From Eubacterium sp. (GTDB taxonomy: Bacteria; Bacillota; Clostridia; Lachnospirales; Lachnospiraceae): a stretch of DNA of 36,978 nucleotides. The notes beneath the pieces are model-generated. The model was not told the origin of the DNA, searched no databases, and worked only from the letters and a program-made list of their open reading frames with translations. The position numbers and the translations under genes are program-made. Shown one piece after another: positions 32,662 to 36,978 of this stretch; position 1 is the stretch's first letter, and every line of letters starts with the position of its first letter. The DNA lies in NCBI GenBank assembly GCA_017437905.1, contig JAFRWY010000111.1, positions 1 through 36,978 on the forward strand, read 5' to 3'.

Positions 32662-32693
32662 ATCCTGCCGCCTCCTTGTCATTTTTCCTAAAT

Positions 32694-32722
32694 ATGATAA
32701 TCGGATTTGTACTTTTTTACAA
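32694..32722 (-). promoter_or_regulatory. folP promoter
   Basis: Minus strand: TTGTAA (32722-32717), a 17-nt spacer, then TATCAT (32699-32694). Leader of about 26 nt. Confidence 0.6.
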
Positions 32723-32741
32723 TCCTGAAATGAAAAAGGAA

Positions 32742-32770
32742 TTGAATACATATCATTTTTTTGGTAAAAT
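32742..32770 (+). promoter_or_regulatory. Promoter of the two-gene GGDEF operon
   Basis: TTGAAT (32742-32747), a 17-nt spacer, then TAAAAT (32765-32770). Divergent from folP. Leader of about 43 nt to the ATG at 32820. Confidence 0.75.
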
Positions 32771-32819
32771 GGACTATGGGGGAAGTAGCACTAAATGTAG
32801 TCTGAAGGGGGAGACTGAT

Positions 32820-34481
32820 ATGAAGCGTTTCTACTTTATCTGCCTCCTTTGCTTTGGCATCTTACTGCTGGCATCGCTGGTAGCGGCATGTATCACCGAA
32901 TACACTTCAGGAAGCCCGACCGTAACTTCTACAGAGGCGGTTTCCGGGTGGAAGTACGAGGACGGTTCCGCTGCCAAGCTTGACGACCTCACTCTGAACG
33001 GGGATGCTTTCGAAGTCACCCGCCGGCTCCCGGAATCCATGGATCCCGGAACCGAGCTTTGTCTGATCAGTACAAATGTTGATTTCGAAGTCTTCCTGGA
33101 TGACCGGCAGATCTATTCCTACACCCCCGTAATACGAACTTTATATGGAAAAACTTATGGCAATGATCTTCATGCCATTGAACTCTCCGGAGCGGAGCCG
33201 GATTCCGTACTCAGGATCCGGGGAAAAGGACTTGACACCTCGATGTTCGTCGGATTCCGGGAAGCCAGTCTCGATTCCGGAGATGCCTTCTACCGTAAGA
33301 CGATCCGGAGGGAACTGCCGAAATTCCTGATCTCCTTCCTGATCTTTGCACTGGGAATCCTGATCACATTGCTGGGAATCTTCTTCAGCAAGGATCATGA
33401 GTTGCAGCTGGAGACCATTGCACTTGGCCTCCTGGCCATAACCTTAAGTCTCTGGACAGCGACCGGAACCTACGTCATCCAGATCATCACCGGCAATCCG
33501 GGTATGGTCCGTCTGGTGAATTACCTTTCACTGATGGTTCTGCCCGCCAGTGGTATAACGCTTGTGGCCTGCCTCACCGGCAGACCGAAGAGCCGGCTGG
33601 TACTACCGATCCATCTTATCGTGATCATGAATCTGATCATGTATATGATCGGCATCTTCATTTTGAAGAAAGACTTCCACGCCTTCCTCTTCATAACGCA
33701 TTTCTCCCTGATCCTGGCTGTAGTCTTTGCGATCCAGATGCTGATCGGGAGCCTGCGCAGGAAACCGGAGCAGGGGGAGTCCCGGGATTATACCACTTTG
33801 ATCGCATTCGGCATTCTGGTACTCACGGGCCTTGTGGATCTGGTGCTTTACTATTTTTCCGACAGCGCTGACATGGCCCGCTTCTCCCGTGTCGGTCTGC
33901 TGATCTTCGTAACGATCCTTGCAGGCCACGAGTTGAACCGGTTCATCGAAATCTCCGAGAAAAGCCACGAGGCCGATGTCATGGAGCGTCTGGCGCATGT
34001 GGACGGGCTTACCGGACTGAAGAACCGTACCAGTCTGAACGAACATGAATTTGCATTAAAACACGAATCCGAAGGCGTAGCGGTTCTTACGGTCTTTGAT
34101 ATCAACTACCTGAAGAAGGTAAATGATACCTACGGACACAAGGCCGGCGATGATTTCATCCGCCACGGCGCCTCCATTATAGACAAAAGCTTCGGAGAAA
34201 CGGACTGGATCTTCCGGACCGGCGGAGATGAATTCTTCGCAATCCTTTTCTCTCCGGACCCGAAACGGGAATCAGAACTGCTCCTTGCCTTTGAAAAGGG
34301 CGAGAAGCTGATGAAGGAACAGATACAGAAACACAATGACAGCAATCTATCCCCTGTCCCTCTGCAGATTGCCTACGGCATGTCGGTCTACCACTGTCGT
34401 GACAAGAATCTTGAGGAACAGGAGCAATTGGCTGACAGCCGCATGTATGAGCATAAGAAACAACTAAAGCAAGGCTGCTGA
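32820..34481 (+). CDS. 7TM-type membrane diguanylate cyclase with extracytoplasmic sensor domain
   Basis: The 553-residue protein begins with a hydrophobic export signal ending in LVAAC, which matches a lipobox (Cys24). An extracytoplasmic beta-rich domain (~28-160) follows, then about seven transmembrane helices (~168-370), a short coiled linker, and a GGDEF domain (~385-550). The layout is that of 7TMR-DISM sensors. The cyclase core is intact: HVDGLTGLKNRTSL, FDINYLKKVNDTYGHKAGD and RTGGDEFFAIL (GGDEF 468-472). The inhibitory RxxD site is missing (GETD in its place). GGGGGAGA lies upstream of the ATG. It is first in an operon with a second GGDEF gene 47 nt downstream. Confidence 0.9.
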   Translation: MKRFYFICLLCFGILLLASLVAACITEYTSGSPTVTSTEAVSGWKYEDGSAAKLDDLTLNGDAFEVTRRLPESMDPGTELCLISTNVDFEVFLDDRQIYSYTPVIRTLYGKTYGNDLHAIELSGAEPDSVLRIRGKGLDTSMFVGFREASLDSGDAFYRKTIRRELPKFLISFLIFALGILITLLGIFFSKDHELQLETIALGLLAITLSLWTATGTYVIQIITGNPGMVRLVNYLSLMVLPASGITLVACLTGRPKSRLVLPIHLIVIMNLIMYMIGIFILKKDFHAFLFITHFSLILAVVFAIQMLIGSLRRKPEQGESRDYTTLIAFGILVLTGLVDLVLYYFSDSADMARFSRVGLLIFVTILAGHELNRFIEISEKSHEADVMERLAHVDGLTGLKNRTSLNEHEFALKHESEGVAVLTVFDINYLKKVNDTYGHKAGDDFIRHGASIIDKSFGETDWIFRTGGDEFFAILFSPDPKRESELLLAFEKGEKLMKEQIQKHNDSNLSPVPLQIAYGMSVYHCRDKNLEEQEQLADSRMYEHKKQLKQGC

Positions 34482-34528
34482 AGCACGGAGCGTATCCTCC
34501 GATGCACCGGCACCGGATAGGAGAAGTT

Positions 34529-36232
34529 ATGCTGACTATCTTGAAAAACACGTATCTTGAATCCTCCAGGAAGTTCCACAGGGTCATCCTGTTTTTCCTG
34601 GCCGCATCCACTGTGATCGCATATTTCATCGATGACGGCACCACCATAGCAACGATGATCTTCTATCTCGTTCTATGTGTTGCCTGCTTCGTCTTCGATC
34701 TCTTCTATCAGCGATACAGCCAGCGGAAGGAATACTACTCCGGGATCTACGTCTACAAGGTATTTGTTTACCTGGGCGGACTGATCGGCGGTGCTTTCAT
34801 CGGATCCATTCCGATCCCTCTCCTGGGGTCGTTCCTGGTCTACGGTATCCTGATGATCTGCGAGAGCGTACTGCTGAATGATGTCTACGACATCATGATC
34901 ACCTATCGTGATTATTTCTTCTTTACGACGATGCTGATGCTGGCCATGGTGCTGCCGTTCCGTGCTTTGTTCGACAAAGCTATCGCGATCCTGATCCTGA
35001 TCGCCGGCGCCGCACTCTTCCCGCTGGTTCATCTGCTCCGTCAGATCACGATCCAGAGTATGATCTACATGGACAAGCAGTACACGCATATCTTCTTCCG
35101 TAACCTGGATGTGGAGGAAGAGAACTCCGGACTGGTTGAGATGCAGCAGCGTCTGGAGGAAGTAAACGAAACCATCAATTATCAGCGTGTACAGTTAAAC
35201 GATGCGCTGTCCGATCTGAAGAAGCGCAGCGAAGAAACCCACGCACTGATCGAGATCACATCCCATTTCACTTCTACCTTTGATCTGTCCGACAGTTTAC
35301 AGTTCATGGTTCAGAAGCTGGTTGAGTTAAAGAATGCAAACATCTGCTGCTTCCTGATCGAAAAGGATGTCTGCCTGAACGAGGATATCATCTTTGAGGC
35401 TTATACCGATAAGAACTATGGGCGGGAACGCCTGAAGAAGGAAACCTATCAGATCTTCGAAGAGTTCAAGCGGAGCGGATCCCGCGATCCTCTTGTGATC
35501 TGTGATAATTACGATCAGTTCCTCCCCTACTTCGAGCGCAGAGGATGCTGTATCTCCGCAATCCCCGCGTACGAGCAGGATCAGTTGTACGGCGTTATGG
35601 TGATCGCCGGTGAGAAATACGACTTCTTCTACGGCGGCTATGACTTCTACAAGACCACCATCGGTGATCTGACAACCGCCATGATCAAGGACCGGCTGTA
35701 TCTTACAACCGAGGATATGGCGAAGAAGGATGGTCTTACCAAGATCTACAACCGTATCTACTTCAATCAGGTTTATCCGGATATGCTGAATTCTGCAAAG
35801 CAAAATGGCGGTACGATCTCCGTCCTTATGCTGGATATCGACCACTTCAAGAATGTAAATGATACCTACGGCCATCTGGCCGGTGATGAGGCGATCCGTT
35901 CGGTAGCCCGTTCCGACTGGGAAGTGGCAAAGAAATACGGTGGTATGGCAGTCCGCTTCGGCGGCGAGGAATTCCTCCTCATCCTTCAGGATACACCTCT
36001 GGAGAAGGCTAAAGAGATCGCAGCCGAGTTGCATGAAAAGATCCGTACCACAACGATCCATTTTGAAGATTACGAGATCAACATCAACACCAGCCTCGGT
36101 GTGGCAAACTACCCCACCACCGTACAGGATACCAACCTTACGCTGGATCGTTCCGATAAGGCTATGTACTACGGCAAGACCCACGGCCGCGGCCGCATCA
36201 TCGTAGACGGCGTCGACAACGTTGATCCGTGA
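34529..36232 (+). CDS. Membrane GAF-GGDEF diguanylate cyclase
   Basis: The 567-residue protein has an N-terminal membrane region of about six helices (~19-172), a coiled coil (~195-240), a GAF-like domain (~240-390) with a Cys pair in NANICCFLI, then a GGDEF domain (~395-560). Core motifs: KKDGLTKIYNRIYF, MLDIDHFKNVNDTYGHLAGD and RFGGEEFLLIL (GGEEF 478-482), so cyclase activity is expected; no RxxD inhibitory site is present. The start at 34529 (MLTILKNTY) follows AGGAG; the longer frame from 34502 is not supported. It is the second gene of the operon and ends at a strong terminator. Confidence 0.9.
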   Translation: MLTILKNTYLESSRKFHRVILFFLAASTVIAYFIDDGTTIATMIFYLVLCVACFVFDLFYQRYSQRKEYYSGIYVYKVFVYLGGLIGGAFIGSIPIPLLGSFLVYGILMICESVLLNDVYDIMITYRDYFFFTTMLMLAMVLPFRALFDKAIAILILIAGAALFPLVHLLRQITIQSMIYMDKQYTHIFFRNLDVEEENSGLVEMQQRLEEVNETINYQRVQLNDALSDLKKRSEETHALIEITSHFTSTFDLSDSLQFMVQKLVELKNANICCFLIEKDVCLNEDIIFEAYTDKNYGRERLKKETYQIFEEFKRSGSRDPLVICDNYDQFLPYFERRGCCISAIPAYEQDQLYGVMVIAGEKYDFFYGGYDFYKTTIGDLTTAMIKDRLYLTTEDMAKKDGLTKIYNRIYFNQVYPDMLNSAKQNGGTISVLMLDIDHFKNVNDTYGHLAGDEAIRSVARSDWEVAKKYGGMAVRFGGEEFLLILQDTPLEKAKEIAAELHEKIRTTTIHFEDYEININTSLGVANYPTTVQDTNLTLDRSDKAMYYGKTHGRGRIIVDGVDNVDP

Positions 36233-36294: not shown

Positions 36295-36320
36295 CATATG
36301 TTCCGGAGACTATTGCACCG

Positions 36321-36374
36321 ATAAACATAGGGACATGGAGCACCGTCATAAACATAGGGACATGGAGCACCGTC
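36321..36374. repeat. 27-bp perfect tandem repeat, two copies
   Basis: Units 36321-36347 and 36348-36374 are identical; each begins ATAAACATAGGGACATGG and ends AGCACCGTC. A diverged partial third unit (AAACAAAGGGACC) starts at 36375. It directly abuts a long hairpin. Confidence 0.9.
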
Positions 36375-36440
36375 AAACAAAGGGACCGGATAGTACGCCA
36401 TGGGAAATGTCGTACTATCCGGTCCCTCTGTTCTCGGTGC
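36367..36440. repeat. Long hairpin, REP-like
   Basis: A 17-bp perfect stem (36381-36397 with 36411-36427; AGGGACCGGATAGTACG and its complement) with a 13-nt loop, flanked by outer arms GCACCG/CGGTGC (36367-36372 and 36435-36440). No T-run follows, so it is not a terminator. The wording resembles GGGAC-type REP sequences mobilised by Y1/RAYT transposases (memory, not a search). No transposase is present. Confidence 0.6.
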
Positions 36441-36546
36441 ATGTAACTAATCTCTAATTCATGTTCATTATGTATGTTTCTTTGGGTTGTCTCCTTGATT
36501 TCCGATATTGTTGTGCCACACAGCAGGCAGATGAATCAGAACCGCA

Positions 36547-36735
36547 GGACGGTTTCTAAGCGCGACCATTGAGCGACGTCGGCACTGGACATCGTTCGAG
36601 CAAAGCGAGATACGATGTCCTAGTGTGCCGGATTATGAGTAAGAAGCATCCGGAGGAGCTGATTACGCATAATCCGGCATGAAACCGCTACGTCGTGAAA
36701 TGGAGTGCGAACGGTGTCGCGCGTGAAACCTGTCC
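36547..36735. repeat. 189-bp nested fold-back element (MITE or structured RNA)
   Basis: Complementary blocks occur in nested order. GGAC 36547-36550 with GTCC 36732-36735; GGTTTC 36551-36556 with GAAACC 36725-36730; GCGCGAC 36560-36566 with GTCGCGC 36716-36722; CATT 36567-36570 with AATG 36699-36702; CGACGT 36574-36579 with ACGTCG 36690-36695. Inside are two hairpins: CGGCACTGGACATCGT with ACGATGTCC..GTGCCG (36580-36630), and GCCGGATTATG/CATAATCCGGC (36627-36678, 11 bp perfect), sharing 4 nt. No ORF of note. It sits between convergent transcripts, as inserted elements often do. Confidence 0.6.
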
Positions 36736-36778
36736 GTTAGGTTCTCATCTGCCTGCGTCTCTTTGGCTGACTCTCAAA

Positions 36779-36830: not shown

Positions 36831-36978
36831 TTACTCAACGATGGTTACAACGGATCCGGAACCTACGGTTCTACCACCCTCACGGATAGCGAAACGAAGA
36901 CCAGACTCCATAGCTACCGGATGGATCAGCTCGATGCTCATCTCAACGTTATCACCAGGCATGCACATCTCTGTACCA
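36831..36978 (-). CDS. tuf: Elongation factor Tu (partial, C-terminal 49 codons)
   Basis: The last 49 residues of EF-Tu, domain 3: [17 protein letters not shown], then [17 protein letters not shown], then [13 protein letters not shown] and a TAA stop at 36831. EF-Tu delivers aminoacyl-tRNA to the ribosome. The rest lies beyond the window edge, probably after fusA in a str-type operon (expected, not seen). Terminated by the palindromic hairpin at 36779-36809. Confidence 0.97.

Follow-up and report, generated by a model that had tools for sequence, protein, structure and literature searches.

A palindromic element between convergent genes

The window, that is the whole 36,978-nucleotide stretch analysed here, is a contig of a Eubacterium sp. 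of the family Lachnospiraceae. Near its right end, a palindromic element lies between two convergent genes, as the initial annotation had noted. On the + strand a GGDEF gene ends at 36232; the - strand carries the last part of an EF-Tu gene, identified by Pfam GTP_EFTU_D3, with its stop codon at 36831-36833. By sequence reading, the element lies just past a terminator-like hairpin of the EF-Tu gene. The same-strand neighbour genes at 32676-34481 and 34502-36232 each encode a C-terminal GGDEF domain. A second palindromic repeat (36316-36442, GCACCGATAAACATAGGGACATGGAGCACCGTC ... GGTCCCTCTGTTCTCGGTGC) lies a short way to the left of the element, and relatives of this repeat were found within two copies of the element family described below (L017 and L011).

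A 189-bp fold-back (36547-36735) with five nested paired blocks and two GC-rich hairpins had been described at this site, and all of these parts are present. Its + strand folds at -95 kcal/mol (z -8.49) and its - strand at -84.5 kcal/mol (z -8.29), values equalled by 0 of 200 shuffles in each case. The element is larger than this, at about 253 bp (36515-36767, with + taken as the folding strand). Outside the range first described, GCAGGCAGATGA (36523-36534) complements TCATCTGCCTGC (36745-36756), GAACC (36539-36543) pairs with GGTTC (36740-36744), and GCCA (36515-36518) forms the outermost pairing with TGGC (36764-36767). The extent is drawn from this outer pairing and from relatives, whose arms are self-paired and copy-specific.

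All parts are given on the + strand. The 5' arm (36523-36556) comprises GCAGGCAGATGA, GAACC, GGAC and GGTTTC, and the 3' arm (36725-36756) comprises GAAACC, GTCC, GGTTC and TCATCTGCCTGC; both were assigned by pairing and duplex scores. Inside them, helix P1 joins GCGCGAC (36560-36566) to GTCGCGC (36716-36722), as found in the fold and in alignment A2 (10 rows), where the inner GCGAC:GTCGC is kept in 10/10 rows. Helix P3 is a covarying stem in alignments A2 and A4 (16 rows), with a 5' strand of CATT, a loop, CGACGT and CGG (36567-36582) and a 3' strand of CCG, a CT bulge (36688-36689), ACGTCG and AATG (36685-36702). Between its strands lie hairpin B (CACTGGACATCG...CGATGTCCTAGTG, 36583-36625; fold, and helices 5 and 6 of A2) and hairpin A (GCCGGATTATG...CATAATCCGGC, 36627-36678; helix 4 of A2). 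Hairpin A is present in the long forms of genomes G000, G035 and G036 and absent from short forms. The small hairpin P2 (GT-GCGA-AC, 36705-36712), with its GNRA loop, is missing from the single-sequence best fold, and its support comes from the comparison of loops across copies.

The two GC-rich hairpins had been proposed to overlap by 4 nt and so to switch. Their core forms are separate, and the best fold contains both; overlap with hairpin A would require an extended GGCAC:GTGCC pairing. The switch is unsupported, since CGG has CCG of P3 as its partner in 10/10 rows of A2 and 16/16 rows of A4. The same pairing led to the rejection of an early idea in which the P2 region formed a pseudoknot with CGG.

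Copies and host range

The genome of origin holds two full copies and part of another. The second full copy (contig C16) is 87% identical and lies downstream of a tmRNA gene, and the partial copy is on contig C70. At loci L002 (1312-1475) and L015, from two genomes, the 3' tail of the tmRNA gene is present a second time downstream, after a hairpin-rich stretch.

BLAST returned matches in 3 of 60 related genomes besides the genome of origin. For the long form, covariance model R1 (10 sequences: nine long ones, including two spliced, plus the short L008) matched 12 of 61 genomes of the genus, many of the matches being divergent short forms of ~120-130 nt. A short-form model (R2; 16 sequences in the window's + orientation) was run with stricter filters, and its counts are lower bounds: at least 47 of the 61 genus genomes matched at E 0.01, the genome of origin included. 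With the best 8 candidates per genome scored, R2 matched at least 56 of 392 genomes of the order at E 0.001 (own included), all of them in the window's family and belonging to at least 29 of 174 genera. At phylum level, scored in the same way, at least 6 of 398 genomes matched, namely the genome of origin, three others of the family, G808 from another family (5 matches) and G732, with an E-value of 0.00099.

An 8-kb stretch with two copies, used as a BLAST query, gave 49 and 53 matches in two related genomes, G844 and G845 (~90% alike). By hand count, with the best 40 candidates scored and parts included, each has about 40 separate element places. An exact-pattern scan of named genomes found at least 120 stretches, and the 80 titles listed were Lachnospiraceae, Clostridiales and Clostridia MAGs (mostly the first two), together with Butyrivibrio, Roseburia, Acetatifactor, Dorea, Eubacterium and a few others. 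The exact pattern was absent from viral contigs. Copies are dispersed widely, and near-identical ones occur with different flanks in single genomes. The search of the genome and its relatives proposed in the initial annotation returned a multicopy, interspersed family; of the outcomes that it had named as refuting, a lack of homologues and a loss of pairing, neither was found. The element is a real, abundant, structured palindromic repeat.

A conserved three-way junction with covarying helices

On the + strand, the core of the element is a three-way junction of P1 (consensus GGGAC:GUCCC), a long P3 and the short hairpin P2. P3 has a conserved two-base CU bulge (CGUCGG...CCG-CU-ACG) and a variable tip. 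Changes on both sides of a pair occur in 20/63 pairs of A2 (48 cells) and 17/31 pairs of A4 (71 cells). The covariation scores are 0.200 in A2 (0.088 shuffled) and 0.366 in A4 (0.130 shuffled), each equalled by 0/500 shuffles, in a control that ignores relatedness and with structures partly derived from the same sequences. Further pair types were at least as numerous in 53/500 shuffles for A2 and in 28/500 for A4. In A4, 89.3% of cells are paired, compared with at most 39.4% when partners are slid. Wobble pairs are rare, at 5 of ~443 paired cells in A4 and 10 of ~557 in A2. Compensatory change beyond the shuffle control, which had been suggested as the mark of a structured RNA, is thus present in both alignments; in the arms, template switching can mimic such changes.

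The P2 loop is of the GNRA type on the + strand in 82 of 103 hairpins when an unrestricted longest-stem rule is applied to 104 unique full-length rows. The remaining 21 include two AAGA loops and consist mostly of hairpins in another register (GCG-AAAG-CGC, for example). For further counts, a set of 102 unique cores was hand-picked as full-length rows from 122 matches, leaving out same-site repeats, reverse-strand and partial matches, and the weak full-length L028 and L071 at 1331. A [GA]N[AG]A pattern gave 98 GNRA, 2 AAGA and 2 without a loop among these 102 cores, a count that leans towards such loops because the pattern is restricted to them. The loose first count found 100 hairpins in the 102 cores, 88 with GNRA and 12 with GNYA loops; the latter are taken as wrong hairpins, since the loose search was unanchored.

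Several variants of the core were observed. In a subfamily (L037, L029, L105, L121-L124), CTAG replaces the CTAC bulge context (GGGUCUCGG ... CCGCUAGGGG) and the flanking pair is swapped at both sides. Arrays of small hairpins that look like nested inserts occur in or near P2, at varied core positions, in L012, L016, L003 and L142-L144, and several of the inserted hairpins have GCGAAGC-type loops. Tandem repeats of the 3' part run past the end of the element in L120 (beyond 415), L338 and L340.

The strand that folds was examined in the 102 unique cores with 35-nt flanks, disallowing G-U pairs so that both strands were treated equally. The + orientation folds better in 85/102 cores. Single mismatches in this orientation comprise 63 GU against 27 AC, 87 UU against 19 AA, 25 GG against 4 CC and 36 GA against 28 CU; the counts are dependent and their numbers inflated because copies share ancestry, and GA against CU is not significant when taken alone. 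This spectrum of mismatches favours the window's + strand as the one that folds, and the bias in the core fits a folded single strand of either RNA or DNA. The outer arms alone have no strand bias (tight stems read on the opposite strand contain 15 GT and 19 AC).

Arms that differ between copies and match within each copy

Arm pairing was scored in 27 of 29 copies from several genomes, two insert-bearing copies being left out. The score of a copy's arms with each other averages 49.6 (lowest 33), compared with 13.7 (highest 37) for 200 random cross pairs. A second set comprised 60 copies from G844 and G845, 30 per genome out of ~40 places each. It contains 46 distinct 20-nt 5' arms, and 1182 of 1200 arm positions are Watson-Crick pairs (the rest being 9 GT, 4 AC and 5 other). 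Arms are perfect in 46/60 copies, while random cross pairs match at a mean of 14.9/20 positions, 24/2000 being perfect.

Orthologous copies illustrate how arms change. L339 and L362 are one compensated pair apart, L319 and L350 differ at one position that gives a T:G wobble in L319, and the second copy of L258 differs from its G844 counterpart by two adjacent compensated pairs. In L317 and L351, matched by one flank, 7/21 arm positions differ and the partner arms follow. Two of the four pairs matched by both flanks are oppositely oriented. One of them, L322/L343, has orthologous flanks and shares an identical 21-nt arm that is absent from the other copies of the 60-copy set; from sequence comparison, it is best read as an inversion in place, although two insertions could in principle give the same arrangement. 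In the other, L311/L361, the arms are alike at 10/21 positions, and this pair is therefore read as two independent insertions into a single gap between genes.

Published work ascribes two effects to polymerase template switching at inverted repeats: the arms become homogenised and the spacer is inverted (PMC8604942, PMC8794818). Such switching is probably the main process that keeps the arms of this family paired. The idea that the element inserts into pre-existing palindromes or terminators was rejected, the arms looking like diverged parts of the element; it was dropped because many copies in G006 share an ACGAAT-type end together with a consensus.

Insertion sites and gene context

In G355, five copies with identical cores have different flanks and end in TACTTTATTG...CAATAAAGTA. 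TA stands at both sides of these ends in 3/5 copies. In G002, six copies have common flanks on both sides. The four that were read completely follow an ISLre2 transposase, in the interval from its stop codon to the right-hand end of a 1766-bp unit, whose 9-bp duplications are those of the insertion sequence itself.

Among the presence differences examined between G844 and G845, none gave a clean empty site from which a target duplication could be read. Of four aligned indel sites, one is missing a longer segment that includes the element, one has a remnant, and two are unreadable. Two further sites have remnants in one genome. At the tuf locus, where 6 of 30 loci matched, no empty site was readable.

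Gene context was assigned from mechanically called frames for 81 of the 102 cores, 21 being in loci too short. Among the 69 cores with a frame on both sides, 26 and 23 lie in the two orientations between co-directional genes, 15 in convergent and 5 in divergent gaps; 7 other cores overlap a frame and 5 lie at an edge. The co-directional orientation is even, so nothing ties the element to gene expression. In L317, a 311-aa open frame (62-997) passes through the element, and its residues 8-146, ahead of the insert, match a DNA-alkylation-repair domain. The counterpart in a related genome (L351, 21-764) is cut by the contig end.

Relation to known repeats

Rfam 15 gave no gathering-level match in the window or in 17 family loci; at loose E-values, matches were found only below gathering scores. 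This was one of the checks suggested in the initial annotation. A literature search by title and start of abstract, with supplements outside its scope, found no description of the family. A study of human microbiomes lists 250 palindromic candidates among 3161 in the text available (PMC8040213), and the Lachnospiraceae repeat family may be among them.

MITEs of the IS630/Tc1 type have inverted-repeat ends next to TA. The ends of the G355 copies resemble these, and like MITEs in general the element is short, multicopy and without an internal transposase gene. It differs in that the outer repeats are not common to the lineages read, only the inner core being common; terminal inverted repeats common to copies were not found among the 27 copies from several genomes, while the outermost ends are partly common to copies inside one genome. 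The proposal that the element is either a MITE or a structured RNA thus holds partly on both counts: the element occurs in many scattered copies, and compensatory change preserves its pairing. The TA that flanks three of the five G355 copies is at most a candidate target duplication.

REPs are 20-40 bp long with GTAG or CGTC tags, GTAG defining one super-family, in the portion of PMC3733652 that treats them. As with tagged REPs, the Lachnospiraceae element is palindromic, has many copies that are mostly intergenic with some in genes, and has a candidate short tag at its foot. GTAG precedes the palindrome in 42/60 copies of G844 and G845 and another NNAG in 18, at an offset chosen to favour GTAG; the window element has ACAG at this place. 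Whereas REPs are of 20-40 bp, this element is about 250 bp long, its three-way junction is conserved and its arms are specific to each copy; neither a 20-40-bp palindrome nor, in co-occurrence counts, a RAYT/Y1 association was found. The REP survey PMC12306157, as far as its text was available, contains nothing of such size or group.

The hosts of the Rickettsia palindromic elements (RPEs) belong to another phylum. RPEs are described, in the available part of PMC10969869, as ~150-bp palindromes that enter genes in frame. By description, the family resembles them in having an in-gene palindrome, as L317 appears to show; it differs in that most placed Lachnospiraceae copies are intergenic. The Bacillus cereus repeats bcr1-bcr18 (100-400 bp, with a mean of 39 bcr1 copies per strain in the passages of PMC6542083 used here) are likened to it, also by description, as interspersed elements belonging to one bacterial group. 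The bcr repeats have a TTTAT motif. The earlier statement that the element is unlike any known feature is thus too strong, since it works like REP, RPE and bcr palindromic repeats. Its multibranch core, its copy-specific self-complementary arms and its lack of an Rfam match are unusual features, and it is read as a palindromic interspersed element of the REP/RPE/bcr kind with an unusually elaborate core.

A probable selfish element and its alternatives

The window element is probably a copy of a Lachnospiraceae-wide interspersed palindromic family that is non-autonomous and likely selfish. Its + strand, either RNA or DNA that is single-stranded at the fork, would form a rod that carries the three-way junction close to its tip. 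A trans-acting enzyme would recognise the core and copy or insert the element. After insertion, template switching over the hairpin would keep copying one arm onto the other, so that arms would drift quickly yet stay paired and the element would sometimes flip. Any transcript bearing the element would contain a large fold, which could alter mRNA decay or read-through as a by-product.

Movement as a REP-type element, by a RAYT or other Y1 transposase cutting a single-stranded hairpin beside the GTAG tag, appears unlikely. The GTAG before most G844/G845 copies, a tag that defines one REP super-family, would suit this mechanism, as would the strand bias, expected of a hairpin single-stranded on one strand. 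However, Y1_Tnp, the one enzyme family examined, has no association with the element in co-occurrence counts, being matched in 17/31 element-bearing genomes and in 16/25 genomes without a hit in limited searches. Y1_Tnp is unmatched in fourteen element-bearing genomes, among them the genome of origin, though some of the fourteen are incomplete, and the unit size and the ACAG of the window copy also differ from REPs. A functional non-coding RNA family, acting as a decay or termination element or in trans and copied many times, is equally improbable. Compensatory changes, GNRA loops and the strand bias argue for it, as does the excess of convergent over divergent gaps among placed copies, in raw counts of gap type. 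Against it stand the even orientation relative to co-directional neighbours, the open frame through one copy, the one apparent in-place inversion, and a copy number that varies among relatives from no hit, in limited searches, to ~40 places.

The G002 copies raise a further explanation, in which the element belongs to the structure of an ISLre2-family insertion sequence and the small copies are deletion derivatives. Their shared flanks and their place after the transposase favour it, but the recent G355 copies end differently, beside TA. The arms within the insertion sequence form a complete element, and hitch-hiking is therefore the simpler account; an ISLre2 origin is very unlikely. A more speculative form of the selfish reading, to which we give little credence, is a bacterial SINE-like retroelement. 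Its folded RNA single strand would be replicated or recognised, new copies would gain their second arm by copying the first, and each insertion would build and later maintain its own private palindrome.

A repeat present at tens of sites in the genomes of some rumen and gut Lachnospiraceae is thus without an Rfam match. In its arms, template switching seems to have left a natural record, with dozens of hairpins per genome in near-perfect Watson-Crick pairing and little wobble. This record bears on the use of compensatory change in hairpins as proof of selection on RNA. Unlike the arms, the core has strand-specific signs of a folded single strand, and one element may therefore allow both effects to be separated.
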